Below are positions 10,943 to 27,837 of a stretch of DNA of 64,000 nucleotides, piece by piece. Position 1 is the stretch's first letter; the number at the start of each line of letters is the position of its first letter. Both the position numbers and the translations under genes were made by a program. A model generated the notes under the pieces. It worked only from the letters and a program-made list of their open reading frames with translations, was not told the origin of the DNA and made no database searches. This stretch comes from a candidate division KSB1 bacterium (GTDB lineage Bacteria > Zhuqueibacterota > JdFR-76 > DREG01): NCBI GenBank assembly GCA_022566355.1, contig JADFJB010000003.1, positions 1 to 64,000 on the forward strand, read 5' to 3'.

Positions 10943-13192
10943 TTACTTTGCAGATGAAATTGGGAAACTTACTCCAGCATACCAATTTCTACCAGGCGCC
11001 GGCTCAAAAAACCGATTTCCGAAGGCATTGGGTACGATGGAGTCATTATATTTATTATCGAATATATTGTTGATCCCTAATAATAAATGAACTGAAAAAT
11101 CGTGTAATTTCCGTTGAAGCCCAAAGTGAGTATCAACTAAAAAATAAGATGAATTTATAAAAGATTGCCTTGATAAATCGCTGCCAACAGGTGGTCCATT
11201 CAAATCATTAGCAAAGAAATTGTCATTCCATTTAAAATTGATTGCTGAGTAAAATCCTGAATCGTGTTCATAATTGAATCCGGCAAAAAATCGATGTGGC
11301 GGGATGCCTGGAACCTTGTTGTCAGACAATTGTAAATTATCAGGAGAAGATTCTACAACAAAGTCTTTAAAAATAAAGTTCATGTATGAATAGGATAAAA
11401 TGATTTTAGTCCCGGTGATTGGCGTCCAGGTAGATTTTAATTCAAATCCTTTATTGGTTGCTTTACCGGCATTCCGAAAGAAAATTTCTTCACTGGCAGG
11501 ATCTTGAACCTGGAACGGAATGAGCATATTGGTAATTTGTAGAGCGTATAATGCCAGATCGTAGTTGATTTTGTGGTCAGCCCAAACTCCTTTTAGTCCA
11601 ACTTCAAGGCTTTTGATATCTTCCGGCTCCAATGCAGGATTAAATCCACCTGCACCAGATGGTCGATTACTCAATTCCGTAGTTGTTGGAGTTTGAAAAG
11701 CGGTTGAATAATTTATGTAAAAACTGGACAAAGGATCAAAGCGGTAGGTGAATCCGATCATTGGACTAATTTGATCCATGTTTCTTTCACCGGAATCATC
11801 GACATTGTCCTCTAGAAAATTATCTTTAACTTTGAATTTATAATAATCGTAGCGAGTCCCAATGGTAAAAAATAAATTCTGCCGGAAAACAAATTCTAAA
11901 TGAATAAAAGGCCCAATACCAAGGACCTCCTCTTTTTGTTCGAGTAACTTGGATCCGAAACGAACCTGGTTAAAAATTTCTTTTTCTTCTAACGATGGAT
12001 AAAGATTATCAGGCAAACCCAAATTAATAAACTCGGAGCGATCATCGCTTTGGCTTTCAAAATCAGCTCCGCCAGTCAATCTGATAGTGATTCCATTTAG
12101 ATGCGAGCTCTTGCTGAAGACTCCACGTAACCCACCGGCATGCCTTGAAAGATCGATAATTCTACCCGGGATAAGATTGAAAAGCGATCGTGACAATCCA
12201 TACATTGTTAGTTCGAATTTTTCCTTTTTTTGGCCATACAACAATGAAACACCACCCTGGATTTGACGAATTTCCTTTCCAGCTCCTTGGTTTTTGACAA
12301 ATGTTCTTGCTTGCTGAGGAGTTGATTCCGCTGCAGATTTTGATAAGGAACTTGGATTTAACAGGTATGGAGAATCATAATAATTGAAAACTGTTCTAAC
12401 CCGAAAATGTTTCGATACATTATGATGACCAACGATGTTGACTGAATTCATTTTCGCAGAAGAATGTTCCCGAAAACCATCCAATTTAAGATTGTAAAAA
12501 TTGACCAGGAAATTATGGCGCTTAAAATTTAAAGAAGATTTTGCCTGTAATTTTTGGTAGCCATAAGAGCCGATAGTGAGTTTGGGTGTGAATAACAATC
12601 TTTGTTCAGATGCAAATTCGGTGTGAAAAATGAGCACTCCACCTGAAGCATTTCCATATAGTGCGGAATTGGGTCCGCGTAATACTTCAAGAGACCCAAT
12701 TGAGCTGATGTCCAGGTTGTTTAATTGTGATTGTCCATCCGGCATGGTCAATGGGATGTCATCCAGAATAATCTTAATCCCACGAACCCCGAATGAAGCA
12801 CGGCTGCCAATTCCCCTGATGGAAATACGGTCGCCCTGAGATAAATTATTTCGATTATTGACAATGATTCCAGGAACTTCACGCAAAGATTCTTCTAAGG
12901 AAAGCTGTAATTTACCACGTTGAATACTTTTTTTGGAGAGAACATCAATTGCATATGGGACTTCATAAATCGGACGTGAAGTACGAACTGCAGTCACTGT
13001 TACCGGTTTGAGTTTATATTCAATCTGATCCTTCCTGAGAGAGTCTTGCTGAGTTTGGGCGAGTAATACTGAAATAACAAAGATATTAATTAAGATCGAA
13101 ATTATTAAAAATGAATACAATCGACGAATTCGGAGAAGTTTGTTCTTAAGCGTTTTAAAAAAATTATTTTTCAAAATTAGTTCAGTTTCCAC
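10943..13192 (-). CDS. TonB-dependent outer-membrane receptor
   Basis: This 749-residue protein has a membrane/signal segment near residues 24-47 and a plug domain at about 65-175 (VPYAIDVLSKKSIQRG, LEEVPG-like ESLREVPGIIVNNR, RISIRGIGSRASFGVRGIK, DDIPLTMPDGQSQLNNLD, LEVLRGPNSALYGNASGGV). A long beta-barrel follows, ending in an aromatic-rich C-terminus (GRNWYAGVSF). It imports an iron chelate, cobalamin or other ligand using TonB energy; specificity is not readable. It overlaps the 3' end of the PQQ-propeller gene by 16 bp, so the two are translationally coupled. The N-terminus carries unusually many basic residues before the hydrophobic segment, and an internal start is possible. Confidence 0.9.
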   Translation of the reverse strand: METELILKNNFFKTLKNKLLRIRRLYSFLIISILINIFVISVLLAQTQQDSLRKDQIEYKLKPVTVTAVRTSRPIYEVPYAIDVLSKKSIQRGKLQLSLEESLREVPGIIVNNRNNLSQGDRISIRGIGSRASFGVRGIKIILDDIPLTMPDGQSQLNNLDISSIGSLEVLRGPNSALYGNASGGVLIFHTEFASEQRLLFTPKLTIGSYGYQKLQAKSSLNFKRHNFLVNFYNLKLDGFREHSSAKMNSVNIVGHHNVSKHFRVRTVFNYYDSPYLLNPSSLSKSAAESTPQQARTFVKNQGAGKEIRQIQGGVSLLYGQKKEKFELTMYGLSRSLFNLIPGRIIDLSRHAGGLRGVFSKSSHLNGITIRLTGGADFESQSDDRSEFINLGLPDNLYPSLEEKEIFNQVRFGSKLLEQKEEVLGIGPFIHLEFVFRQNLFFTIGTRYDYYKFKVKDNFLEDNVDDSGERNMDQISPMIGFTYRFDPLSSFYINYSTAFQTPTTTELSNRPSGAGGFNPALEPEDIKSLEVGLKGVWADHKINYDLALYALQITNMLIPFQVQDPASEEIFFRNAGKATNKGFELKSTWTPITGTKIILSYSYMNFIFKDFVVESSPDNLQLSDNKVPGIPPHRFFAGFNYEHDSGFYSAINFKWNDNFFANDLNGPPVGSDLSRQSFINSSYFLVDTHFGLQRKLHDFSVHLLLGINNIFDNKYNDSIVPNAFGNRFFEPAPGRNWYAGVSFPISSAK

Positions 13193-14409
13193 AGGGTCAA
13201 ATTTGTTTTGTCTTTAATCAAAATATGATTATCAAATAGTACCGGGTGCGCCCAGGTTTGAGAGTCGGCAACTGTATATTCTCTAATAATATCCAGCTTC
13301 TCACGGCTTGGTTTTGCAATGATTAATTTTCCTTCATTTTGTAAACTCAGTAGAAATTCACCAACCCGAATTAAAGCAGCATTTTCACCCACACGACCCT
13401 GGCTTTGCCATAACACCTCACCGGATTTTGCATCAACCATTGCATATGATCCTTTACGACGATCTGAAAACAGGACAATAATATCACCGAACAAAACCGG
13501 AGAACTCATATAGGTCCAGGTATCTTTGTTCTTCCATACTTCTTCCACCGACCAAGTGTCATTTTTCTTTTCGATTTTCACCCTCATTAATGCTTTCTGC
13601 AAGCCGGAAAGGATCAGGTCGTTTTCATAAAAAAGGGGTGTCTGAATATTTTGAAACCATGGCGTTTGAAATGGAATTTGCCATAGCAGCTTACCATTTT
13701 CAAATGCAAGTCCTATGATATTTTTTTGAGATAAAGTGATAATTTGCTTTACCCCGGCAATTGTTGCAATAAGTGGAGAGGAGTAACCCGGTCCGTCATT
13801 ATCCCATTGCCATTTGATGTCGCCGCTTTTTATGTCAATAGCCATTAAGGCGCCTTTTTGACCACCCACATGTGCAATGGCTAAACCGTCATTGACCAGT
13901 GGAGACATAGCAGTACCGAAAACAGGCGCCGTTTTACTGAATTGCTCAGTAAACCTTCTTTGCCAGGTCAATGCTCCATTGGTAATATCGAAGCATGAAA
14001 GCACTCCATTGATACCAAGGGTAATGATTTTACCCTCTGCAATCACCGGCGTTGATTTTGGTCCTTTACCGTGGCCAAATGCGGCGGGATTCAGCGTGTA
14101 AGGCGCCGAATAAGATTTTTGCCAAATGATGGAGGCATCTTTCGGATTGATGCAGAGAAGAACTTCCTCGGTGTTTTGCCGGGTAAAGACAAATATTTTA
14201 CCATTTGAGTAAATGGGTGAGGAGTGGCCTTCACCAACTTCAATTTGCCAGGCTTGTCGTAATTGCTGGGGCCAATTACTCGGAATTTGAGAAATGGCTG
14301 CAACGCCATCTCGATTTGAACCACGCCATTGTGACCAATCCTGGGCAAAAACCGGTTGGAATAAAAGAATGGTTATTCCAACAAAAAATAAAAACTTATG
14401 AATTTTCAT
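13177..14409 (-). CDS. PQQ-like beta-propeller protein, exported
   Basis: This 410-residue protein has a cleavable signal (ending VFAQDWSQWRG). The opening WSQWRGSNRDGVA is the common start of PQQ-like outer membrane propeller proteins. Repeats such as LLCINPKDASIIWQKSY, LSCFDITNGALTWQRRF, LMAIDIKSGDIKWQW and YAMVDAKSGEVLWQSQ are PQQ-repeat blades, about seven in all. It lacks the catalytic residues of quinoprotein dehydrogenases as far as I can see, so it is more likely a structural or binding protein. It is the upstream partner of the TonB receptor gene (16-bp overlap). An operon pairing a propeller with a receptor suggests a role in presenting the imported substrate, which is an inference. 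Confidence 0.85.
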   Translation of the reverse strand: MKIHKFLFFVGITILLFQPVFAQDWSQWRGSNRDGVAAISQIPSNWPQQLRQAWQIEVGEGHSSPIYSNGKIFVFTRQNTEEVLLCINPKDASIIWQKSYSAPYTLNPAAFGHGKGPKSTPVIAEGKIITLGINGVLSCFDITNGALTWQRRFTEQFSKTAPVFGTAMSPLVNDGLAIAHVGGQKGALMAIDIKSGDIKWQWDNDGPGYSSPLIATIAGVKQIITLSQKNIIGLAFENGKLLWQIPFQTPWFQNIQTPLFYENDLILSGLQKALMRVKIEKKNDTWSVEEVWKNKDTWTYMSSPVLFGDIIVLFSDRRKGSYAMVDAKSGEVLWQSQGRVGENAALIRVGEFLLSLQNEGKLIIAKPSREKLDIIREYTVADSQTWAHPVLFDNHILIKDKTNLTLWKLN

Positions 14410-14576: not shown

Positions 14577-16775
14577 TCATTTGATGATTACAAACCTCCC
14601 TACTTGTCTATCCCCGTTAATTGTTTCAACGGAAAAAATATATAAACCACTGGAAATTGCGCGGCCGGTCCTTGAAAATAAGTCCCATCTAACTCTGGAA
14701 TAAAATGGATCGTTGTGTTTTAATGTATGCACGAGATCGCCATCCAAAGTGAAGATTCGAATTGTACTTTTATCAGGAACATTGACAAAGTCAATGGCGC
14801 GATTATGGACACCGATCCCTTCAGGTGTCATCGAAAAGATTTTAAAGCCATCTCCGGAAACATAAGGATTTGGCTCAACCCATACTTTTGCAAAACCTTC
14901 TAAAAGTTGAGGTGATACATTTACTTTGGTTAGATTTGTGAGAAGATCTGATTCCAATGATTCTATCCCAAGTTCGGTAGCGCCACGATCAAAAGAAATG
15001 ACGGAATAATAAAACAGTGATCCATTTGGGACATGGTCTACATAATTAAAGGAAAGACCTGTATTGTTTCCAATTGAATTATTTGGTAAGTCGTATTCTG
15101 CCAGTAGTTCAAATGTACCGGTTTTGCCGGTTTTGCTCCTAAGAACTCGAAAGCCTTCGAAATCTATTCTCTCGTCTTCTTCTGTGTTTGGGTTATCCGA
15201 ATAAAACGGGTCAATGAAGTTTAGGGGTAAACTTTGATCTGTTGCATCATATCCGGAATTGTTTGGATCAGCAGCCGACCAGTCCAGGGTTACAGTGCGA
15301 TCGCCAGGGATAACTTTCAAAGGAGGGGAGAGTGGGGGAATGAGTCCGGTGAAATCCGGGACATCGTCTCCGGTGTCAATTATGCCATCGTTGTTGAGGT
15401 CTAACCCGGCAAAACCGTCGTTATCCGTATCGACACCAGGAGTGTCAAAAAAACTGTTTGCTATGATTGCGTTTTTACCAAGATCCTCAAAAGCAGCCGG
15501 ATCGTAAGAATTCAATCCTCTAGCAACATCCGGATCGCCACTACCGCCAATAATTGCAATAGTAAACAGAATTGAATCACCTGGAGCGAATATCTTAACT
15601 GTTTGGCCAAACATGGAGTCGTTCTGTTCTGTAATCGTGGAATCCCTGGTTCCCATTGGACCGACTGAAAGTAAAAATCTCGAAGGATCATTGGCAATAA
15701 ATCCAAACGGACCCATAGGTACGGGAATCCTGGAGTCAAATTGATTATCGTCTGTATCGTATTGATTCCAGTCGATGGAGCCATTGCTCATAAGAATGTA
15801 TTTTTCAGGATCATCTACCGGTGTGCCAATGGGATCTCCGGAATTGGGATCGCCGGTAAGGACATTGGGTGTTATGGGGCCCCAATCTTCCTTAGAGTTT
15901 ATATCAGAGTCACTCATCCACCAGTTAAAGGCAAGCGGAGCTGCACGCGAAGTCGGCCGTAAAATTCTAAACCCGACTACGCCTGCCATACACCCTTCAC
16001 CACCATCGGTTTCGACAACCCAGGCTGTATTGACGACATCACCAAAAGAATTGACAGCCATAAATCCAGTAGCATCACTTTGATCGCCAGCATTCCCCCT
16101 ACAACCCATATCGTTGTCAGCGAAAATACCTGCATAAAAATTCCTGATATAGTTATTACCGACATTTATTATCACCAGGTCGAAAAAGACAATATCTTCG
16201 GCAAATGATAATGAAAACTGGTAACTTTTTTCGATTATTTCCAAACCAAGGGAACGTTGGTGTTTGGGTGGAGAAAATGAAAAGTTGGCTACATTCAAAA
16301 AAGTATCTGTATAAACAGCTATAAAATCTTCCTCCGAGACCGCAGATGGATGGTAGAATTCACTACTAGTAAGTGAAGAGCGAACTTCGATTGCCGAACG
16401 ACTGTCCGGGTAATGAGGAAAGGTCTCAGCGAAATCTACAACACTCCAGGCTGAAGTGCCTTCGGAGACCAGGGTATCCAGATCACCGGAATCATTCAAA
16501 TCCGGCCCATTTGTTCCGTCCGATGGCACAATTCCGCCGAACCAAAATCCACCACGATTTATGTATCTGGGCAGGCCTTGAATATCGGTACCTGGCCAAA
16601 GTACACCTGCTGACTGGTTCCCGCCAATTTGACCATAATTCGTAATCGTTACCCAAAGCTTGCCGGTCTTGTGAATTTTTGAATCGCTAAAATAGTTAGA
16701 AAATTGGGCAGGAAGTTCTCTGGTTACGCAAACAGTAGAGATCAGTAATAATGAATAGCATACGATCGCTTTCAT
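14577..16775 (-). CDS. Large secreted protein with T9SS/FlgD-like C-terminus (copy 1)
   Basis: This 732-residue protein has a signal peptide (about residues 1-22), a long beta-rich body with acidic repeats resembling dockerin/EF-type loops (DTDNDGFAGLDLNNDG, near residue 450), a fibronectin-III-like segment (about 490-600), and a C-terminal module TIRIFTLDGDLVHTL ... SGLYIFSVE ... VGRFVIIK. That module is the FlgD-Ig-like / type IX secretion sorting form. It is a close paralogue of the protein at 17978-20206, and the two are alignable end to end (for example LVSEGTSAWSVVDFAETFPH in both). The PorV-like gene lies between them. Probable role: cell-surface protein delivered by a T9SS-like system; no enzymatic motif is recognised. 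Confidence 0.8.
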   Translation of the reverse strand: MKAIVCYSLLLISTVCVTRELPAQFSNYFSDSKIHKTGKLWVTITNYGQIGGNQSAGVLWPGTDIQGLPRYINRGGFWFGGIVPSDGTNGPDLNDSGDLDTLVSEGTSAWSVVDFAETFPHYPDSRSAIEVRSSLTSSEFYHPSAVSEEDFIAVYTDTFLNVANFSFSPPKHQRSLGLEIIEKSYQFSLSFAEDIVFFDLVIINVGNNYIRNFYAGIFADNDMGCRGNAGDQSDATGFMAVNSFGDVVNTAWVVETDGGEGCMAGVVGFRILRPTSRAAPLAFNWWMSDSDINSKEDWGPITPNVLTGDPNSGDPIGTPVDDPEKYILMSNGSIDWNQYDTDDNQFDSRIPVPMGPFGFIANDPSRFLLSVGPMGTRDSTITEQNDSMFGQTVKIFAPGDSILFTIAIIGGSGDPDVARGLNSYDPAAFEDLGKNAIIANSFFDTPGVDTDNDGFAGLDLNNDGIIDTGDDVPDFTGLIPPLSPPLKVIPGDRTVTLDWSAADPNNSGYDATDQSLPLNFIDPFYSDNPNTEEDERIDFEGFRVLRSKTGKTGTFELLAEYDLPNNSIGNNTGLSFNYVDHVPNGSLFYYSVISFDRGATELGIESLESDLLTNLTKVNVSPQLLEGFAKVWVEPNPYVSGDGFKIFSMTPEGIGVHNRAIDFVNVPDKSTIRIFTLDGDLVHTLKHNDPFYSRVRWDLFSRTGRAISSGLYIFSVETINGDRQVGRFVIIK

Positions 16776-16794
16776 ATAAAATTCCCCAAAAAAG

Positions 16795-16839
16795 GTTAAA
16801 AAAATGGCTCCATCAAATAAATAAAAGATGGAGCCATTT
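16795..16839 (-). terminator. Rho-independent terminator after the PorV-like gene
   Basis: Arms 16802-16814 and 16827-16839 are perfect 13-bp complements (AAATGGCTCCATC / GATGGAGCCATTT). Read on the minus strand, the stem is followed directly by a run of seven T, then AACC and another T run. It lies 20 bp after the stop of the PorV-like gene (16860) and before the start of cargo copy 1 (16775). It should therefore end or attenuate transcription between them. Confidence 0.85.
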
Positions 16840-16859
16840 GAGACTAAGGATTATTAAAT

Positions 16860-17915
16860 CTAAAAGCCTAATAATACGGAGAATCTTACCAAGTCATCAA
16901 AGTTTGTCATTTTGGTCCAGGATACATCGAATCGGCCGTTAACTCCGCTTACATCGAGATTAATGCCTGCGCCAAAGGATAATGATTCGGCAAAACCGGA
17001 TCCATCTTCAATCTTGATACCATCATCGTCCAGTATATCATTATTTTCTTCGTCAATTTTAAAGCCAGTGCGAAGGAAAATCAGGTCATGATAACCATAT
17101 TCGAGGCCGACGCTCTGGTACCTGAGGTTATCGTTAGGTTGATTTAATTGGCCTGTTAGCCACAATTTACTGTCATCGGAATACATTAAGTCGACTGCCA
17201 CACCAAACCTGAAAGTTAATGGCATAGGAAAGGATTGGCTTTCGAAGCCCACATCACTTTCGCTACCGAAAGTAATATCAGGTCCAAAATTTGAAATTGA
17301 CATCCCCAAACGTGCGTGTCGATAGCCAGCAAAGTATATGGTGCCAATATCAAATGCAACCGTTCGTGAGTCGAAACCAGCTAAATCCTGGGCAATAAAT
17401 TTTGCAGTGCCGCCTATGGCAAATCTATCCGTTAAGCTTTTGGAATAGGTTAGCCCGATGGCAATTTCAGTGGCGCTAAAGTTCTCACCTGTGGGTCCCT
17501 GGAAAGCTACCGTCACCGGAATGTCCCCGGTGGTCAACGCGATGAAACTCAAGGCGAATGTTCCCATGGAATTGGTCGGCAGTATAAAACTACCAAAGTA
17601 ATGTGCCAAACCTGCGGGCAAGTTAGTATGATTGAAAAAGGCTTGCCTATTCTCAATTAAAGCTAAAACTCCAGGATTATAGAATGCGCCGCTGGCATCA
17701 TCTACAAGAGCAACAAATGTTTCACCCATACCGGTTGCCCTGGCGCTTACTCCAAGCTGCAGAAATTGAGCCGCTGCAGTTCCAGTCCTAGATGCACCGC
17801 CCAAAACTGTTATGGCACCTTGATTATTATCTTGAGCCAAAAGTGAGAATGGAAAAAATGAAACCAGCAACACCAGGGCTAAGAAAACTCGAATTGATTT
17901 TTTTATTGTTTTCAT
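16860..17915 (-). CDS. PorV/PorQ family outer-membrane protein
   Basis: This 351-residue protein has a signal peptide ending near LLAQDN. The next segment, QFLQLGVSARATGMGETFVAL followed by DDASGAFYNPG, is diagnostic for the PorV/PorQ (UPF0164-like) beta-barrel family, in which PorV shuttles type IX secretion cargo to the surface attachment complex. The rest is an alternating beta-barrel pattern ending in an aromatic residue (RFSVLLGF). It is embedded between two cargo-like genes carrying T9SS-type C-termini, which supports a dedicated cargo-handling role. A strong terminator follows it. The short gap to copy 2 upstream (62 bp) suggests co-transcription with it. Confidence 0.85.
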   Translation of the reverse strand: MKTIKKSIRVFLALVLLVSFFPFSLLAQDNNQGAITVLGGASRTGTAAAQFLQLGVSARATGMGETFVALVDDASGAFYNPGVLALIENRQAFFNHTNLPAGLAHYFGSFILPTNSMGTFALSFIALTTGDIPVTVAFQGPTGENFSATEIAIGLTYSKSLTDRFAIGGTAKFIAQDLAGFDSRTVAFDIGTIYFAGYRHARLGMSISNFGPDITFGSESDVGFESQSFPMPLTFRFGVAVDLMYSDDSKLWLTGQLNQPNDNLRYQSVGLEYGYHDLIFLRTGFKIDEENNDILDDDGIKIEDGSGFAESLSFGAGINLDVSGVNGRFDVSWTKMTNFDDLVRFSVLLGF

Positions 17916-17977
17916 AAAGGACTCCCTACCTTATCGATAGTTAAAAGTTTTTTATTCATTTAATTTCTCATGGTTTA

Positions 17978-20206
17978 TTATTTTATTACAACAAACCTAC
18001 CGACTTTTTGATCTCCATTATCAGATTCGACTGAATAGAGGTAAATGCCGCTTGCAATCGGTCTGGTGTTTCTTGAAAGTAAGTTCCACCGAGCTCGGGA
18101 TGACATAGGATCGTCATGCCGGATGGTATCGACCAAATCACCATCCACGGTAAATATTCGAATGGTGCATTTTGCCGGGACATTTACAAAATCGATAACG
18201 CGGAAGTTTTCGACTGCAACATTATTCGGTAATCCAAAATCCTCAAAACCGGAACGCTCTATATAAGGATTAGGCTCAGTCCAGATCTCTTGATCACCAA
18301 AACCTCCTGAAGTCTCTGCTGCTGGTGAGGCGGCTATTTTAATTCCATTTATTAGTGGGCTCGAGGCTAAGGTTTCGATTCCAAATGAGGGGGCGCCGCG
18401 ATCAAAAGAAACTACTGCATAAGTGTATTCCAAACCATTTGGAACGTGGTCAACATAAGTGAAAGATAAACCTGTGTTGCGGCCTAAGTCATTATCCGGT
18501 AAATCATATTCTGCTAATATTTCAAAGGTTCCTAAAATACCGGTTGCACTTCTTAATACGCGGAATCCTTCGAAGTCCTTACTTTCATCTTCGGGTGTAT
18601 TCGGATCATCTGAAACAAATGGATCTTTAAAGTTCAATGGCAAATTAGGATCGTTTGCATCGTAGCCCGGGCTTGAGGGATCTGCTTCCGACCAATCCAG
18701 GGTTATTGTATGGTCGCCAGGGGTAACCTTGAGTGGTGGTGATGGCGGAGGTGGCGGACCTGTAAAATCAGGAACCCCGTCCCCGGTATCGATAACGCCG
18801 TCACCGTCCAAATCGTCACCGAAATAGCCATCTCCGTCGGTGTCGACGCCCGGGTTATCAAACATAATTCCTGCCATAAAGGCATTTCGACCTAAATCTA
18901 CAAAAGATGCCGGGTCGAATGAGCCCAATGCTTGTGATATGGCAGCATCACCTTCACCGCCAATAATAGCATAGGTGAATAAAACAGTATCACCAGGGGC
19001 AAAGATCTTAACTGTCTGACCAAACATTGGATCGCTCGGGTCAGATATGGTTTCTTCCGTAGCTCCAAGAGGACCGAAAGAAATTAAAAATCGTGAGTTA
19101 TCATTGGGATCGACACCAGCCGGAATATTTGGATTAAACTCCAGTGTCTCCGGATCGAATTGAGGATCATCAAAGGATCCATTACTCATGAAGACGTATT
19201 TTTCAACGTCAACTTCCGGGGTGCCGACTTGCTCTCCATCATTTGGATCACCGGTATAAACGTTAGGTGTTATCGGTCCCCAGTCGTTTTTTGTGCTGAT
19301 GTCGGAATCACTCATCCACCAGTTAAAAGAAACCTGGCCTTCTTCTGCTGTTGGCCGTAAAACCCGAACCCCTACAACACCGGGCATGCAACCATCATCT
19401 CCATCAGGCTCCACAACCCAGGAAGTATTTACTCTATCACCAGTGGAATTAAATTGCATAAATCCTGTGGCGTCATCTCTTTGGGACGCGTTTCCTATAC
19501 AGCCCATGTCATTGTCGGCAAAAAATCCAGCATAAGCATTCCTGATACGGTTATTCCCGATATTTATGATCACCAGGTCGAAAAAGACAATATCCTCGGC
19601 AAAAGATAGGGAAAACTGGTAACTTTTTTCGATTATTTCCAAACCGAGTGCACGTTGGTGTTTGGGTGGAGCAAATGGAAAGCCGGCAGCATTTAAAAAA
19701 GTATCTGAATATACCGCTATAAAGTCTTCTTCCGAGACCGCATCCGGATGGAAGAATGGACTACTCACAAGCGAAGAGCGAACTTCGATTGCCGAGCGAT
19801 CGTCAGGATAATGAGGAAAGGTCTCAGCAAAATCTACAACACTCCAGGCTGAAGTGCCCTCGGAAACCAGGGTATCTAAATCACCGGGGTCATTTAAATC
19901 GGGGCCGCTGGTTGCATCGGATGGTACAATACCGCCGAACCACAATGCGCCGCGATTGATATACCGTGCCTGTCGGCCTACGAGGTCGGTACCAGGCCAG
20001 AACACACCACCCGTTGAATTCGTACCAAACTGACCAAAATTGGTGACCATGACCCATATTTTCCCATTTCTATGCTGTCTTGAATCGGCAAAATAATTTG
20101 CAAATTGTGCGAACAGGTTTCCGCTGGATAAGAATAATAACACCATAAGGAAACCTATGCCGCGACTAATCAATTTCGTTTTCATAATTGCTCCTTTATT
20201 AAACAC
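17978..20206 (-). CDS. Large secreted protein with T9SS/FlgD-like C-terminus (copy 2)
   Basis: This 742-residue protein is a paralogue of the gene at 14577-16775. It has the same architecture: signal peptide, beta-rich body, acidic calcium-type loop (DTDGDGYFGDDLDGDG), Fn3-like segment (VTPGDHTITLDWSEADPS) and C-terminal sorting module ending VGRFVVIK. The annotated first codons (MFNKGAIMKTKL) include an internal Met at residue 8 that better fits the signal peptide; the ATG at 20185 is preceded by AAAGGAGCAATT, so 20185 is the more likely start. The function is unknown. It is probably surface-exposed and delivered with help from the adjacent PorV-like protein. Confidence 0.8.
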   Translation of the reverse strand: MFNKGAIMKTKLISRGIGFLMVLLFLSSGNLFAQFANYFADSRQHRNGKIWVMVTNFGQFGTNSTGGVFWPGTDLVGRQARYINRGALWFGGIVPSDATSGPDLNDPGDLDTLVSEGTSAWSVVDFAETFPHYPDDRSAIEVRSSLVSSPFFHPDAVSEEDFIAVYSDTFLNAAGFPFAPPKHQRALGLEIIEKSYQFSLSFAEDIVFFDLVIINIGNNRIRNAYAGFFADNDMGCIGNASQRDDATGFMQFNSTGDRVNTSWVVEPDGDDGCMPGVVGVRVLRPTAEEGQVSFNWWMSDSDISTKNDWGPITPNVYTGDPNDGEQVGTPEVDVEKYVFMSNGSFDDPQFDPETLEFNPNIPAGVDPNDNSRFLISFGPLGATEETISDPSDPMFGQTVKIFAPGDTVLFTYAIIGGEGDAAISQALGSFDPASFVDLGRNAFMAGIMFDNPGVDTDGDGYFGDDLDGDGVIDTGDGVPDFTGPPPPPSPPLKVTPGDHTITLDWSEADPSSPGYDANDPNLPLNFKDPFVSDDPNTPEDESKDFEGFRVLRSATGILGTFEILAEYDLPDNDLGRNTGLSFTYVDHVPNGLEYTYAVVSFDRGAPSFGIETLASSPLINGIKIAASPAAETSGGFGDQEIWTEPNPYIERSGFEDFGLPNNVAVENFRVIDFVNVPAKCTIRIFTVDGDLVDTIRHDDPMSSRARWNLLSRNTRPIASGIYLYSVESDNGDQKVGRFVVIK

Positions 20207-20240
20207 CTAATTTTTTGCATTATGCTTATCTGAATTAAAA

Positions 20241-23200
20241 TTAAAACCGCAAGCCAAATCCAAATAGAATTTGCCTGGGTGGGCCTAATTGATTCGGTTG
20301 TAGATCCCGAGGGGTACCGTCTCCCTCAATATTACCGTGGGGAAAGGTTTTGGTTTCTAAAACATTTGTTTCCGGATTTTCAATTGTGCAAGTGATACAA
20401 CGGTGAGCGTCATCGCCTTGTAAGAAGAGAACATTTCTTCTATTAAACAGGTTGTTGACATCCAAATAGAATGTTGCAAAAATATCAGACATGAGTTTGA
20501 AGTCCTTTCGAAAACGAAGATCCAACTCGCTGAAATAGGACAGCCGCTCGTTATTTACGATTCTACTAGGGTCGAGTTCGCTATCAAGAGTAAAAGGCTG
20601 ACCACTGCCGTAGCGCCAAAATAAAGTCAGTGAGGCACGATCGATCGTCGTTCCAAACAGATCGATACCTCGGCCGGCAGGTAATTCAAACCGGATATTG
20701 GCATTAATGGTATGACGTTGATCCCAACTCGAATTAATTTCATTTATGTTTGAGTAGGGTATAGTAGAGTTTGTTAAGTTAAACGTTGATGATCGTGCGG
20801 TGGCCCACATGAGAGTATAATTAATATTGGCGGCATAATAATTACTAAATCGTTTTATGAGATCAAATTCGAATCCGCGGTCCTGACCATAGTCTTTGTT
20901 CACTAAAATGCGAAACGGAGCCGCTTCCGGACCAAAAATTTCCGAGTTGATTTGGTTGCGGATATCTTTATAAAATCCGGTTACGCCAATTTTGAGATCA
21001 TCTGTTAGTTGGTGATCGAAACCGATTTCATAAGAAATGGTTTCTTCTGCCTCGAGGTCGGGATTACCAAAAGTGTTTAGCTGGTTCTGGAATACACGAA
21101 AACGATTTTGCCGGCGGTACAATTCACTCAAGGTAGGTATTTGTACGAACCGTCCATAGAAGAAGTATAACCTGCTGCGATCTGTGATTGGATGTGATAA
21201 ACCAAGCCGGGGTGAAAAGTAATTTTTAGTGTTAATGCGCTTTTTTTCAGAATCTTCGGTTAAAAAGGCTTCACCCTGTTCAAATACCTGGGCGCCAGCA
21301 TCAAAACGATCGAATCGAAAGCCGATATTAGCAATTAATGATTCGAATTCGATTTTATCCTGAATATAAACAGCGCCTGAATTGGGGTAGCGGATATAAA
21401 AATCCCGCAATGAACCGGAGGTGATATATGGGCCATTGTCCGGTGGATTTACACGGCGGGAAGGCACTTTACTATCGGCATCGCTAATTTGCTGCTGCTG
21501 CAATATACTATAGTCCCAATTAAAGCCAATTTTTACTTCGTTATGCCTGTTAAACTGGGTAAGGTAATCGACTTTTAAAGAATATTTTCGGGTATCATGT
21601 TGTGACCAATCATCTCCATACCCAACTGCATTAAAAGCAGTACGGGGGTCTAATCTCCCTAATTTTTCATCTGCAGAGTCTATGGCATCCAGGAATCCAT
21701 CAGGATTTCCACTGTTGGTCGTGCCAAAATCTGCTCCCAGTCCGTCTAAAAGACGATTGTTCATTGCATCGGGCAGTAATCTGATGCCATTTCTCATACC
21801 CGGATAGGTTTCTCTGAAATTGTCTAATAAGGCAATCTTTACTTGATAAAACGTTTTAGGGCTTAGAGTATGGCTCCAGCTAAAAACGGTATTGGAATTC
21901 CTGCCCTCCGTTTGAGTCGTGCGTTCCGGCAGCCATTTCCAGGTGTTGTGATTATGGCTATCCCGCCAGAATTGCGAGCCGGTAAAACTAAGGCTGGTAT
22001 TAATCTGGTTATTCACCCGGTAACTTACGCGGGCGCTATAGTTTAAATCATTCCTGAATCTGCCACCCCAATCGATACCCAGAAAATTTTGTTGGAACGG
22101 ATGATCCACCTGCCTGGGATTTACTAAGGTGAGATCACCGCTAGGCGCTTCACCGGGTTCTTCAATCTTACCTTCTTCAAAGGTGAATTGTTCATCGAAT
22201 GTAGTTAGTTGACCGCTTTGATCCTCGTTAGGGAGGTATCCATCCGTGCTAAAAGCCGTTCCTGAGATAAAAAAGTTCACCTTACCTTGCAAGCCGGTAA
22301 AACCCAATGCCGGTAAAATCCTATTGGTGATTGGCTCCGGACCGCCCAAATTGAATTCTGTTCGATCTGAGTTAAACGAATTGCTGCGAACGCCAGGTCC
22401 TATTCCCTTAAAATAATCTGTAGATAACACGTCCAGGGGATTTTCAGCGCCGGAAAGTACATCTGATGGGAAGCGGCCGCTGCCAGTAATATGGTCGGTA
22501 AAATGTGCAATTCTACCGGATAACTTTGGGCCACCGCCCCGGGTAATAATGTTTACTACTCCTGATTGTGTATTGCCATATTCCGCTTGGAAACCACCCG
22601 TTAAAAGCTCGATTTCCTGCACAGCATATTTACCAATGCTTACGATTTCACTATTAAACAGAGGATCGTTCACTGACATTCCGTCTACAAGGTATACAAC
22701 CTCACCGGAACGACCGCCGCGAGCATGAATTTCTTCACCCTCGCCGACGATGCCAGGCATCAATGAGATGGCGTCGGTGACGGTTGAGACGTTAGGAAGA
22801 TCTTCGATTTCGGCTGCAGTTATTCGAGTAGAAGAAGACGTCATATCTTTAATAACGAGGGGTCGTTCGGAGACGATCGTCACGGCTTCACCTAATAATG
22901 TAGTGATTTCAAGGTTAAAATTAATAGTGGTCGTCAAATCCGCCGAAACTTGTACATTGGTTGTCCGAACTTTTTTGTAACCAATCACACTGGAAACAAC
23001 CGTATACGTACCCGGCCGCATCTTCAAGATCGTATAATAACCGTTTATATCTGTTGCTGCACCCTGGGTTGTACCTTCGATAATGACATTAGCGCCAGGT
23101 ATTGGGTCGCCTGTTTGTCCATCAACAACCCGGCCGGCAATTTTACCTGTTTCACCGAAATTGGCGGCTTGTACAAAGCCGATACTAAAAACAACGGTGA

Positions 23201-23246
23201 AACAGAGTAAAAACCCGCTAACTTTAAATAGTGTTTTAAGTTTCAT
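20241..23246 (-). CDS. SusC-like TonB-dependent receptor with CarboxypepD_reg domain
   Basis: This 1001-residue protein begins with a signal peptide (to about residue 27). A carboxypeptidase-regulatory-like domain follows at about 35-115 (GKIAGRVVDGQTGDPIPGANV, GYYTILKMRPGTYTV). The plug domain spans about 125-235 (EIEDLPNVSTVTDAISLMPG, IHARGGRSGEVVYLVDGMSV, LTGGFQAEYGNTQSGVVNI) and a large barrel ends in LFGFGLRF. The terminal Phe is typical of BAM-inserted barrels. It should import or display an unknown ligand. The two following upstream genes encode lipoproteins, an arrangement reminiscent of SusC/SusD pairs although neither is a recognisable SusD. Confidence 0.9.
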   Translation of the reverse strand: MKLKTLFKVSGFLLCFTVVFSIGFVQAANFGETGKIAGRVVDGQTGDPIPGANVIIEGTTQGAATDINGYYTILKMRPGTYTVVSSVIGYKKVRTTNVQVSADLTTTINFNLEITTLLGEAVTIVSERPLVIKDMTSSSTRITAAEIEDLPNVSTVTDAISLMPGIVGEGEEIHARGGRSGEVVYLVDGMSVNDPLFNSEIVSIGKYAVQEIELLTGGFQAEYGNTQSGVVNIITRGGGPKLSGRIAHFTDHITGSGRFPSDVLSGAENPLDVLSTDYFKGIGPGVRSNSFNSDRTEFNLGGPEPITNRILPALGFTGLQGKVNFFISGTAFSTDGYLPNEDQSGQLTTFDEQFTFEEGKIEEPGEAPSGDLTLVNPRQVDHPFQQNFLGIDWGGRFRNDLNYSARVSYRVNNQINTSLSFTGSQFWRDSHNHNTWKWLPERTTQTEGRNSNTVFSWSHTLSPKTFYQVKIALLDNFRETYPGMRNGIRLLPDAMNNRLLDGLGADFGTTNSGNPDGFLDAIDSADEKLGRLDPRTAFNAVGYGDDWSQHDTRKYSLKVDYLTQFNRHNEVKIGFNWDYSILQQQQISDADSKVPSRRVNPPDNGPYITSGSLRDFYIRYPNSGAVYIQDKIEFESLIANIGFRFDRFDAGAQVFEQGEAFLTEDSEKKRINTKNYFSPRLGLSHPITDRSRLYFFYGRFVQIPTLSELYRRQNRFRVFQNQLNTFGNPDLEAEETISYEIGFDHQLTDDLKIGVTGFYKDIRNQINSEIFGPEAAPFRILVNKDYGQDRGFEFDLIKRFSNYYAANINYTLMWATARSSTFNLTNSTIPYSNINEINSSWDQRHTINANIRFELPAGRGIDLFGTTIDRASLTLFWRYGSGQPFTLDSELDPSRIVNNERLSYFSELDLRFRKDFKLMSDIFATFYLDVNNLFNRRNVLFLQGDDAHRCITCTIENPETNVLETKTFPHGNIEGDGTPRDLQPNQLGPPRQILFGFGLRF

Positions 23247-23276
23247 AGCTAGGTCTCCTTTTTTTTAGTGATATTT

Positions 23277-24716
23277 TTATTGTCCCATTTCTCTCATAAT
23301 TTCTTGTGCCAATGCCGTTGAATTGCGCAGGCTGGCTTTTACGTTGGAATTTTCAAATAACGGAAAAGTCATAAAAACCACTTCTGTATTTGTGCCGCCT
23401 ACCGGGAAGCGTAATGCAACATTCCCTATTTCATCTTGCAGACCACCTTTGCCGATATAAATAATTTCTGCATCTGGACCAGGAAAGAATTCGTCAACAT
23501 CACCAGACTGAACGTCTATAGTAACCCGTGGAAAGTTGACCGGATCACCCAATGTATTATCTGCAAAACTAAATTTAAGATCGCCGTCAAAATCGCCTGC
23601 ACGGCTCCATCTTATTGTGGGATCGATTAGTGTGTCACCTGTCGCACCAGCCACATGTAGATAGACTACTTCAAATTCCGTTGGATCGGGCGGATTACTG
23701 TGATTATTACCCGGTCCTGCGGGAGATGAAAAGATTTCCATAATTCCCTGGCCCATAATCCAGAGCTTTCCACCGCCATCCGCAAATTCGGAAAGTTGAA
23801 CCGGAGCTTCCGGGTAAGCATCGCCAATTTCGTGCCACATGGAAGATCCACTTCCATATAACACAGCTACCTGGAATGGAGTTAAATCAGCAGTTACTGG
23901 GATTCCTTGCTCGGCGATATCCCAGGTATCGAAGGCAAAACCTTCGAGAATAGCGGCATAGAAACCATCTTCATCGATTTCATCCAAGACGCTGCCCTGG
24001 GGATTATCATCGACAATAAGGACAGTAGGGAGTTTTACTTCATATTCTATCTCGGTGGTTGAGACCTCGCCATCATTGTCCTGGGCTTCCAATGTAAAGG
24101 TATAAGTATCGGGCGCAGCAGGTACAACGAATCCGGCTGTCGTTCCTAAAGCAAATTCACCAAAAGCTCCACCCTCTGTGCTGCGCCAGCGATAGCCGGT
24201 AATTGAACCGAATTTGTCCGGATCTGTACCGCTCCATTGAAACTTTGCGGTTTGACCGGGAGCATAAGCCGGGGTTGCACCGCTGCCGCCCGAAGAGGCG
24301 CTGCCGCGGGCGCCGGAAATGAGGACTTGTGGAGGTCCTGTATTGGCGCCAACATTGAATGTCCTGGAGACTGTGGCTGTCTCACTTCCGCCGGTTGCAG
24401 TTACCGTAAATGTATAACTACCCGAAGGCTGCCCATTATATGTTTTTGATATTTCATTTGTAGATACAAGTGAAGCATCAACCCCTGATAATTGAATCTG
24501 AAAGCTTACACTTGCTCCCCCACCACGTGCTCGCCATTCGAAGGAGAAGCGCGAATTATTTAATATGGTTCCGCCCTCTGCGGGACCTGCAATAATCTCG
24601 ACTATAAGCGCCTGGGTAAAGGCTGTTATGGTTTTATCATCCTTGGCGCAGGAAAACAAAAGCGCCAAAGATAGTATGAAGTAAGGAGCGCTTCTCTTAA
24701 TTATTGTTTTTAACAT
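23277..24716 (-). CDS. Ig-repeat lipoprotein with Rossmann-like C-terminal domain
   Basis: This 479-residue protein has a lipoprotein signal ending LALLFSC (C23). Two Ig/PKD-like modules follow (about residues 35-125 and 130-225: FEWRARGGGASVSFQIQLSG, AKFQWSGTDPDKFGSITGYRW). The C-terminal half starts VLIVDDNPQG and continues AVLYGSGSSMW..LSEFADGGGKLWIMGQGIME, which looks like a ThuA/GATase-type alpha-beta fold. It shares this plan with the next gene upstream, and both lie just upstream of the SusC-like receptor. Likely an outer-membrane lipoprotein; ligand and function are unknown. The spacing of 30 bp to the receptor supports an operon. Confidence 0.75.
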   Translation of the reverse strand: MLKTIIKRSAPYFILSLALLFSCAKDDKTITAFTQALIVEIIAGPAEGGTILNNSRFSFEWRARGGGASVSFQIQLSGVDASLVSTNEISKTYNGQPSGSYTFTVTATGGSETATVSRTFNVGANTGPPQVLISGARGSASSGGSGATPAYAPGQTAKFQWSGTDPDKFGSITGYRWRSTEGGAFGEFALGTTAGFVVPAAPDTYTFTLEAQDNDGEVSTTEIEYEVKLPTVLIVDDNPQGSVLDEIDEDGFYAAILEGFAFDTWDIAEQGIPVTADLTPFQVAVLYGSGSSMWHEIGDAYPEAPVQLSEFADGGGKLWIMGQGIMEIFSSPAGPGNNHSNPPDPTEFEVVYLHVAGATGDTLIDPTIRWSRAGDFDGDLKFSFADNTLGDPVNFPRVTIDVQSGDVDEFFPGPDAEIIYIGKGGLQDEIGNVALRFPVGGTNTEVVFMTFPLFENSNVKASLRNSTALAQEIMREMGQ

Positions 24717-24764
24717 ATTAGAATCTCCTAAAATTTAAGTCCTTCATATCATATTTTAAAATGT

Positions 24765-26675
24765 TTACAGTTCTCCAAAAAAATTTCTCAGGATATATTC
24801 AAAATTACTTGCAGCGCCGGCGTAGTTCTGTCCATAGATTCGGCCGGCGATGTATACAAAATTACTTTTCGTTTCATCAGTACCGGGTGTGGGCAGCGTA
24901 ACTTCACTCCTGCTGGTATATACCAGGTTCGGATGTGCCCAGACACTTAAACCGCGCACAAAACTGAATGGTGAGGTACCACCCTCTTCCATGGTCGTAG
25001 CGCTGCTGCGATGAGCAAATAACATAGTATGAGTAAATGAAGACTTGGTGTAGCTGGACATACCGTCCCAATCGGTTACGGTGCCATCGTCACTGGAATT
25101 CAAGAATCCACCGCCCCCAGAGAATACTGCGGTTGCACTCATACTGCGTGTAAAAGGTGTCATCTCAACGAGTCCAGGAAAAACCGGAATATATTCTCTT
25201 ATTCTTACCCTGCCGGAGGTAAACCCCTCCCGTCCGGAAATATTGGCATAAGAAATTAAGGCACTATCGAAAAAGTTGTCACCGTTTCGGGTTGCAAGGA
25301 GCACATTTCCTCCAGCTTGTAGATAAGCTAAAATGGGCGTTCCCTGCCAATCTGCCAGATCACCCTGAAAATTGTTACCCAGCCAGACCACAGACGAGTA
25401 TTTTGCCAGAACATCCGGAGATATTGGACCCGATCCAATTGATGCAGGGACTGTAGTGGGAACATGTTGTCCCGGGAAGAGATCCCAGAAAGCTCCAACG
25501 GTAAGCTCTCCAAAATAAGCCTTTGCTGCATAACCATCATGGGGGAGGGGATCATAGCTACCCCAGGTGATGCCGTTAACAAGAAGGAAACCCTCGTCGA
25601 ATGTTGGTAAAGCTACACTGATTTTGTTTGATTGTATGACGACAGCCCCACCCGCATCTCGCAATGCCAGGAAGACAGTATGTTCGCCTGCCGGCATATC
25701 GATGCTGGCAGAAACCGGATCGCTATAGGATAACCATTCAGTGCCGGAAAATGCGTACGATCCATCGGCGTTTAAGGTTTCATCGTTTAAAGAGTAGGAG
25801 TAGTTAGAAACAGCGCCGGTATAATAGGCTGTTTCTCCACGCCAGGTAAAAACTGCAGCTGCTCCCGCGAACCAGCCACCTCCATCCGTTGGACCAGTGG
25901 ATTGTTGTAATATCGGAGAAAACCCACTGCCAACAAAAAAGCTTCGAGTGTCTGGTGTCTCATCTCGAGCGCCATAATTATCGATGGATTGCACGGCAAA
26001 TACATGATTGCCTTCCGCAAACACATTGCCCAGGACAACGCTAAATTCTACACTGGCTTTGCCATCTGAGTCAGCCGCGATAATTGTCTCGGCTCCGCCA
26101 TCGACGGTATAGGCAAATTCTATTACTTGGCCATTTTCGTCAGACCCGGATATTCCAAAAGTCACACCTCCACCTGTAGTGGCTCCATTCGCAGGGCCTG
26201 ACACAATCGAGGTAATAGGCGATTTATTTGCCAGAATCTCAGCAAGGCTCAACTTGGCAACCGCTGGTGTAGGATCTTCCGCACCCTCGTTGTCTTTGGA
26301 TTTGACTTCCACAGTGTGTTCATCTGTTGCTGAAGTGAATGTAATCGTTCCTGAAAAAAACTGTTTGACTGTCCAGTTGGAATAATCCCCGCCATCTAAG
26401 CGAACAGCAAAACTGTCCACTGACCCATCCAGATCGGTACCAGTATATTCTACCGTAAAAGAAAAATCTCCTAAATTAGTCACAACCCCAAGGGTATCTG
26501 TTTCCAGATCCACTTTTTTCAATATTTTTGACGTGATCGATGTTTCCGGAGCTTGATTTACTCCTTTCGCATCAAACTTTGTCGGTCCGTCACCACAGCT
26601 CCAAAGAAACAATAAACTTATAACCAGGAGCAATGGGAAAGCCTTCTTACCATCATGTAAGATTTCTTTAAGCAT
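24765..26675 (-). CDS. Ig-repeat lipoprotein with Rossmann-like C-terminal domain (longer paralogue)
   Basis: This 636-residue protein has a lipobox LLFLWSC (C27). Several Ig-like modules discuss the same pattern as its neighbour (FSFTVEYTGTDLDGSVDSF, VTFGISGSDENGQVIEFAY, AVFTWRGETAYYTGAVSNY). The C-terminal domain has SSVVWLGNNFQGD and ILAYLQAGGNVLLATRNG, resembling the ThuA/GATase-like fold of the 479-residue paralogue. It is first gene of the minus-strand envelope locus and is transcribed divergently from the XRE-cupin regulator. Likely anchored to the outer membrane as an accessory to the SusC-like receptor; no enzyme residues are recognised. Confidence 0.72.
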   Translation of the reverse strand: MLKEILHDGKKAFPLLLVISLLFLWSCGDGPTKFDAKGVNQAPETSITSKILKKVDLETDTLGVVTNLGDFSFTVEYTGTDLDGSVDSFAVRLDGGDYSNWTVKQFFSGTITFTSATDEHTVEVKSKDNEGAEDPTPAVAKLSLAEILANKSPITSIVSGPANGATTGGGVTFGISGSDENGQVIEFAYTVDGGAETIIAADSDGKASVEFSVVLGNVFAEGNHVFAVQSIDNYGARDETPDTRSFFVGSGFSPILQQSTGPTDGGGWFAGAAAVFTWRGETAYYTGAVSNYSYSLNDETLNADGSYAFSGTEWLSYSDPVSASIDMPAGEHTVFLALRDAGGAVVIQSNKISVALPTFDEGFLLVNGITWGSYDPLPHDGYAAKAYFGELTVGAFWDLFPGQHVPTTVPASIGSGPISPDVLAKYSSVVWLGNNFQGDLADWQGTPILAYLQAGGNVLLATRNGDNFFDSALISYANISGREGFTSGRVRIREYIPVFPGLVEMTPFTRSMSATAVFSGGGGFLNSSDDGTVTDWDGMSSYTKSSFTHTMLFAHRSSATTMEEGGTSPFSFVRGLSVWAHPNLVYTSRSEVTLPTPGTDETKSNFVYIAGRIYGQNYAGAASNFEYILRNFFGEL

Positions 26676-27282: not shown

Positions 27283-27837
27283 ATGACAAATTTAAATATA
27301 GGTGTTAGAGTAAAAAAGTTACGATCTGGAAAAAAATTAACATTACGACAGCTCTCTGGTCTTTCCGGTGTTTCTGCAACACAGATTTCTGAAATTGAAC
27401 GCAACCTTACGGCTCCGACTGTCCCGACCCTTATGAAAATTGTATCAGCATTAGATACGGAGGCTAGTATATTTTTTGAAAAGAAAGATAATAAAACGAT
27501 TTCGCTGGTTCGAAAAAATGACCGCCAGCAGTTAATAGACCGGAAGAATAACGTCTTTATTGAAAATATTACGACAGGGATAACCGATTCGAAAATAAAA
27601 GCGATCATCGCACATCCTCCTCCGGGCGCTGAAAATATTCCGGGTGGTTATCAGCATCCTGGAGAAGAGTTGATTTATGTAATCAAAGGAAAAATTGAAG
27701 TTCAATTAAATGACACAAGTTACACTCTCGAAGAAGGCGATAGTATTCATTTTCGGGGAGAAATCAGGCATATCATAAGAAATCCGACTAATCAGGATGT
27801 TGAAGTGCTTGCCATAATATCACCGCCAAATTATTAG
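27283..27837 (+). CDS. XRE-family transcription regulator with cupin sensor domain
   Basis: The product is 184 residues from the ATG at 27283, which has GGAAAAGG upstream; longer readings to 27109 lack a ribosome site. Residues 1-70 are an HTH_3/XRE domain (IGVRVKKLRSGKKLTLRQLS, GVSATQISEIERNLTAPTV). Residues 110-180 are a cupin_2 domain (HPGEELIYVIKGKIEVQLN, YTLEEGDSIHF). This layout is that of PuuR/SutR-type regulators, which sense small metabolites and control catabolic or transport genes. Plausible targets are the permease-amidohydrolase pair at 28874-31187 or its own promoter. Its upstream region carries a 24-bp tandem repeat. Confidence 0.88.
   Translation: MTNLNIGVRVKKLRSGKKLTLRQLSGLSGVSATQISEIERNLTAPTVPTLMKIVSALDTEASIFFEKKDNKTISLVRKNDRQQLIDRKNNVFIENITTGITDSKIKAIIAHPPPGAENIPGGYQHPGEELIYVIKGKIEVQLNDTSYTLEEGDSIHFRGEIRHIIRNPTNQDVEVLAIISPPNY

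Follow-up and report, generated by a model that had tools for sequence, protein, structure and literature searches.

A six-gene locus on the minus strand (positions 14577-26675) of contig JADFJB010000003.1 from a candidate division KSB1 bacterium was analysed; the window denotes the whole stretch of 64,000 nucleotides that contains it. On balance, the locus appears to encode a complex for TonB-driven uptake at the outer membrane. Its extracellular subunits would be cargo of the type IX secretion system (T9SS), brought to the surface and probably retained there by a dedicated PorV-family protein. The C-terminal sorting domain (CTD) of the two cargos is a distinct class, termed ctdN, which lies at the edge of or below the type A model and appears not to be ordinary type A. 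The PorV-family protein belongs to a separate clade, termed PorV-N.

Type A CTDs bind PorV at the Sov pore, and the two are thought to leave together. All type A cargo is said to use one PorV, and dedicated shuttles are ascribed to type B CTDs with PorP/SprF. According to a 2023 review, cognate PorV-like barrels might shield the CTD from cleavage. That idea becomes testable with a PorV clade that has a CTD class to itself and recurs both within one genome and in several phyla.

Sorting-domain class, PorV clade and their linkage

A T9SS is present in this genome (4.62 Mb, 98.5% complete). Sov and PorU were identified with 848 and 884 bits, respectively, and TIGR04183 gave about 90 matches. The first-pass annotation had asked for the core T9SS genes; Sov was recovered, and the GldM search was blank in this genome and equally in every control genome. 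In a phylum survey of 82 genomes, Sov was found in 80 and cargo in 78, so their co-occurrence says little. A second PorU-like sortase was observed on contig C169 (L200 and L201, a 1643-residue frame), the main PorU being located on C46.

The cargos had been called T9SS-type. The assignment to type IX stood, and the CTD is Ig-like; the sorting domain proved to be a class apart from ordinary type A. Against TIGR04183/PF18962 (cut-off 23 bits), cargo 1 gave no match, and cargo 2 scored 17.8 bits on the protein, 22.2 in the genome search and 23.2 with its neighbours. Of the 62 cargo-family members, 13 matched this model, all weakly. A type B CTD with PorP/SprF was rejected, as there was no TIGR04131 or PorP-family match up to E 0.1. 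The ctdN consensus comprises V.PNPY, R.I.F.NLP..CTIRIFT..GDLV.TI.H, WDL.S...Q.IASG.Y.FSVE and G....GKFVVIK. With the first ctdN model, eight members scored at least 68 bits in this genome and the next sequence 34. Seven of these eight had entered the model, and hence the search was repeated with a model built only from other genomes (82 CTDs); the same eight scored 46-106 bits and the next about 22. The eight ctdN sequences formed one clade (support 100/97) when placed in a tree together with 55 other CTDs of the genome. Six of them were located in five operons with a TonB-dependent receptor and a PorV gene (two in the window and the others on contigs C66, C69, C65 and C32), and the remaining two (C176 and C206) lie at contig ends, so their operon context cannot be judged. 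Two ctdN cargo fragments at contig ends of this genome, with their context missing, are at L084:2-877 and L085:3852-4139. In Zixibacteria (L149, L168, L182 and others), ctdN cargo genes were seen in tandem, two to four at a time, with no PorV or receptor nearby.

The PorV-like designation was borne out, with 191 bits against the PorV/PorQ family model NF033709 (cut-off 90). The protein was not PorV, PorQ or PorV2 by the equivalog models, to which it scored 88, 97 and 77 bits against cut-offs of 250, 220 and 325, respectively. Twelve PorV-family genes in the genome exceeded the family cut-off. By the NCBIfam models, C49 carries the PorV ortholog (229 bits, just below the cut-off), C125 a PorQ-like protein (181 of 220 bits) and C10 a PorV2-like protein (194 of 325). 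None of the PorV proteins of the window, C66, C69, C65 and C32 fell into these three groups. A wider set was taken from five genomes, namely this one, two Zixibacteria chromosomes, Acidiluteibacter ferrifornacis and Thermaurantimonas aggregans, with long fusions and weak matches excluded. The 14 PorV genes whose operon includes a TonB receptor formed one clade (support 87/95), confined to such operons in these genomes, and the 21 genes without a receptor, including canonical PorV, PorQ and PorV2-like sequences, fell outside. Within the clade, the PorV of C65 grouped with those of Zixibacteria L290, Acidiluteibacter L299 and Thermaurantimonas L306, that is, across three phyla, with support of 100/100. 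The CTDs of these loci were of the same low-scoring ctdN subtype.

Other arrangements of PorV-family genes were also observed. In L080 (8795-10720) and L083 (5703-7676), PorV-domain proteins of about 650 residues come immediately after CTD proteins, and the one in L083 is followed by two proteins that, judged by eye, have ExbD-like sequence. An adjacent pair of PorV-family genes follows a CTD protein in L078 (6240-9635) and likewise in Zixibacteria L282.

The class and the clade were linked in the same operons. In this genome, a ctdN cargo shared the operon with all five PorV genes that have a TonB receptor and with none of the eight others (Fisher p 8e-4). Among the five genomes, the corresponding counts were 10 of 14 and 0 of 21 (Fisher p 5e-6); two more of the 14 (L167 and L183) are of the five-gene type, with the cargo further upstream. 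Two operon forms were distinguished. The first, with the order cargo, CTD protein, lipoprotein, TonB receptor and PorV, was present in 29 fetched loci, in 24 of which an NHL-repeat protein follows. The second, with receptor, one or more cargos and PorV, was present in 8 further loci. A search for the gene order in other genomes had been proposed, and related operons were indeed found in KSB1, Ignavibacteriota, Neomarinimicrobiota, Zixibacteria and Bacteroidota. The order of the first form is conserved among several phyla of the Fibrobacterota-Chlorobiota-Bacteroidota (FCB) group. An example on contig C32 of this genome (L076:3849-15436) is followed by the NHL protein, and its CTD protein has a lamin-tail domain. 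Moreover, when PorV and CTD partners were exchanged within genomes (3840 arrangements), none correlated better than the true pairing (r 0.85; mean 0.45). The library searched yielded no paper on this combination of PorV-N, ctdN and TonB receptor.

Components and surroundings of the locus

All six open reading frames (ORFs) of the locus were found in the order and at the coordinates given by the first-pass annotation. The gaps between them measure 30-84 bases, and hence the six genes are probably co-transcribed. The features are collected in Table 1.

Table 1. Features of the locus and its divergent regulator (positions in the window)
Feature	Position	Strand	Remarks
Cargo copy 1	14577..16775	-	Signal peptide, mutarotase-like beta-supersandwich (about residues 23-477), Fn3-like module, class-N sorting domain
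ctdN (class-N C-terminal sorting domain) of cargo 1	14580..14894	-	Terminus GRFVIIK
PorV-family outer-membrane barrel, PorV-N clade	16860..17915	-	Proposed dedicated shuttle/anchor
Cargo copy 2	17978..20206	-	Identity 66% to copy 1, 72.5% to the single L121 cargo
ctdN of cargo 2	17981..18295	-	Terminus GRFVVIK
TonB-dependent receptor	20241..23246	-	N-terminal CarboxypepD_reg domain; not SusC by TIGR04056
Lipoprotein 1	23277..24716	-	Lipobox CAKDDK, two Ig-like domains, ThuA-like C-terminal domain; levan-utilisome SGBP architecture
Lipoprotein 2	24765..26675	-	Lipoprotein 1 family, longer, one extra Ig-like module
HTH-cupin regulator, divergent	27283..27837	+	Listed ORF start 27109; 65% identical to L121 counterpart

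The cargos matched no Pfam family. Their C-termini gave weak matches to the type A CTD, PorZ and PorU models; the PorZ model was the best family match, found in 25 of the 62 family members and confined to the CTD in cargo 1. The cargo was modelled with a predicted local distance difference test score (pLDDT) of 81, in which the beta-supersandwich is followed by the Fn3-like module and the CTD. The supersandwich resembles the N-domains of GH94, GH116 and GH15-type enzymes and GalM (Z 12-19). The modelled CTD of cargo 1 is an Ig-like beta-sandwich with seven strands in residues 632-730; it ends in VIIK with a near-invariant lysine, and its Foldseek matches include PorU and PorZ. A recent duplication of the cargo was not supported, with identities of 66% between the copies, 65.6% between copy 1 and L121 and 72.5% between copy 2 and L121.

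The receptor matched the Pfam models for the TonB barrel, the plug and CarboxypepD_reg. It had been described as SusC-like, a label that the family model did not support, with 58 bits to the SusC/RagA model TIGR04056 against a cut-off of 368. For SusD, PF07980 gave no match in the genome and was positive in the control genome; other SusD families were not searched.

Both lipoproteins have a lipobox and Ig-type modules. The Ig and ThuA-like architecture that had been read from the sequence was confirmed at the level of fold for lipoprotein 1, the one modelled (pLDDT 68), in which two Ig-like domains precede a ThuA-like domain in the C-terminal half. This half matched 1t0b with Z 14.4 over 199 residues (root-mean-square deviation 3.3), and the protein matched chain 8aa2_G of the levan utilisome with Z 11.0. 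For the N-terminal half, VIA-align lists many Fn3/Ig proteins, which indicates an Ig-like fold only. SGBPlev comprises two Ig domains and then a levan-binding domain that is similar to 1T0B by DALI (PMC7618045). Lipoprotein 1, with its lipid anchor, two Ig-like domains and ThuA-like C-terminus, has the same architecture. As regards the acidic export signal expected behind the lipid cysteine of surface-exposed lipoproteins, lipoprotein 1 has two acidic residues there and lipoprotein 2 one (CGDGPT); the family mostly has at least two, the cysteine having been chosen by a simple rule that was wrong in at least two rows.

In L121, from the KSB1 isolate PMV_1, the regulator holds the same place before two lipoproteins, the TonB receptor, a single cargo and PorV. 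This retention in a relative makes the unit one of seven genes here. The regulator lies outside the coordinates first given. The description of the locus as self-contained was too strong, because the arrangement recurs five times in the genome. The first-pass annotation was partly supported, being right in outline and strengthened by the comparative evidence; the corrections concern SusC, the class of the CTD and the presence of several such loci in the genome.

The neighbouring genes in the window encode an amino-acid permease, an amidohydrolase, an S58 peptidase, an aminotransferase and a homocysteine methyltransferase. Directly downstream of the locus (10943-14409) is a further TonB receptor with PqqU as its best match (310 bits, cut-off 1200). 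Its gene overlaps that of a PQQ/BamB-type beta-propeller by 16 bases, and the two may be a cofactor uptake pair.

Proposed mechanism and alternative explanations

In the proposed mechanism, the two cargos would be exported through the inner membrane by Sec and then pass out of the periplasm via Sov, where they would be taken up by the co-encoded PorV-family protein and not by the general PorV. As their sorting domains form a class of their own that goes with this PorV clade, they would probably remain uncleaved on PorV-N, like PorU on PorV and PorZ on PorQ. The mutarotase-like beta-supersandwich would thereby come to lie alongside the TonB receptor and SGBP-like lipoproteins, which may bind the ligand, a glycan or another compound, and pass it on. 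The divergent HTH-cupin protein probably controls the operon. An uptake complex is proposed mainly because the folds of lipoprotein 1 agree with the description of SGBPlev. The arrangement is a candidate route to TonB-driven surface machines in bacteria without detectable SusD.

Several points weigh against this proposal. The five-genome linkage test began from PorV genes in selected genomes, and the operon counts (29 and 8 loci) are biased because the loci were found through the cargo. The support of 87/95 for the PorV clade is moderate. In the fetched loci, 73 of the 116 ctdN cargos had no detected PorV-TonB receptor operon, many of them being at contig ends and others in the tandem arrays of Zixibacteria; these would depend on a PorV acting in trans, and linkage is therefore common and not obligatory. 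The correlation of PorV with the cargo body (r 0.84) was as good as that with the CTD, so the congruence shows co-inheritance of the operon and not recognition. The supersandwich fold, known here from the model, by itself reveals no function. Furthermore, there were no carbohydrate enzymes among the window neighbours, and a glycan ligand is a guess from the folds; since these neighbours are genes of amino-acid metabolism, the ligand need not be a glycan.

Alternatively, the PorV-family protein could be a FadL-like component of the TonB receptor complex, either structural or a channel, that does not shuttle cargo, with the cargos using the general PorV. PorV belongs to the FadL superfamily, and surface lipoproteins have a structural partner in BamG, also a FadL homologue. 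In Zixibacteria L279 and L288, receptor-PorV pairs occur with no ctdN in the operon, and a canonical PorV, described as serving all type A CTDs, is encoded in this genome. This explanation is nevertheless unlikely, because every PorV-N of the genome shares its operon with a ctdN cargo and the other PorV genes never do, PorV comes directly after the cargo in the trio loci (receptor, cargo, PorV), and the cargo CTD is a separate class. Moreover, L180 has a cargo-PorV pair with no receptor detected, although it is near a contig end.

Plain co-regulation, in which receptor, lipoproteins, cargos and a spare PorV raise secretion capacity with no cognate recognition, would account for the tree congruence of cargo body and CTD alike through operon co-inheritance. 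In the trio loci on C66 and C69, ordinary type A proteins come next. According to the gene maps, such proteins adjoin PorV-N in few loci only, and a distinct CTD class is linked to a distinct PorV clade in several phyla, which makes this reading rather improbable. It is very improbable that the TonB-dependent barrel itself helps to export the cargo, as is described for Oar, a TonB-dependent transporter needed for PopC secretion in Myxococcus xanthus (PMC6434023); the receptor adjoins the cargo in many loci, but it matches ordinary TonB barrel and plug models, the cargos carry CTDs of T9SS type, and Sov and PorU are both encoded in the genome.

On the reading of a dedicated PorV-family partner, a further and only tentative step is that PorV-N and ctdN form a third kind of cognate shuttle-cargo system. 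A permanently PorV-bound supersandwich might then lie over the TonB barrel in the position of SusD, in an arrangement perhaps older than, or exchanged among, several FCB phyla. Type IX secretion might thereby serve an entire class of TonB uptake machines.

Comparison with known systems

The levan utilisome consists of SusC, SusD, a glycoside hydrolase and the SGBP BT1761 (PMC7618045). It shares with the locus a TonB barrel and a lipoprotein, here a putative surface one, of Ig-Ig-ThuA-like architecture. Here, however, the receptor fails the SusC model, no SusD was found, no carbohydrate enzymes adjoin the locus, and the T9SS-secreted supersandwich protein is without a counterpart in the utilisome.

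Canonical type A cargo and PorV share with the present pair the Ig-like CTD, the terminal lysine and a PorV-family carrier. The CTD is nevertheless below or at the edge of TIGR04183, and the carrier is far under the PorV equivalog cut-off and in another clade.

In the attachment complex of Porphyromonas gingivalis, PorV retains PorU and PorQ retains PorZ, both with uncleaved CTDs (PMC5562754). The likeness is that of a CTD protein held at the surface by a PorV-family barrel, which is proposed here, and PorZ is also the best family model for the cargos. By contrast, the pair here is not one of sortase or lipopolysaccharide delivery, is one of many paralogous pairs and is tied to a TonB receptor.

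SprB-SprF and Fjoh_3952-Fjoh_3951 are type B CTD substrates with cognate PorP/SprF shuttles (PMC12618676). In both cases, the gene of a T9SS cargo is followed directly by that of an outer-membrane shuttle, here a proposed one, dedicated to it; a genome may hold several pairs, and some cargos are orphans; the unlinked ctdN cargos resemble the orphan type B substrates that share a shuttle. In contrast to type B, the partner here is of the PorV family, the CTD is short, Ig-like and type-A-like, and the operon includes a TonB receptor and lipoproteins. Cognate shuttle-cargo pairs are already known; here the proposed partners are of the PorV family and tied to TonB receptors. The recurrence across phyla suggests that type IX secretion uses many specialised PorV carriers and not one.

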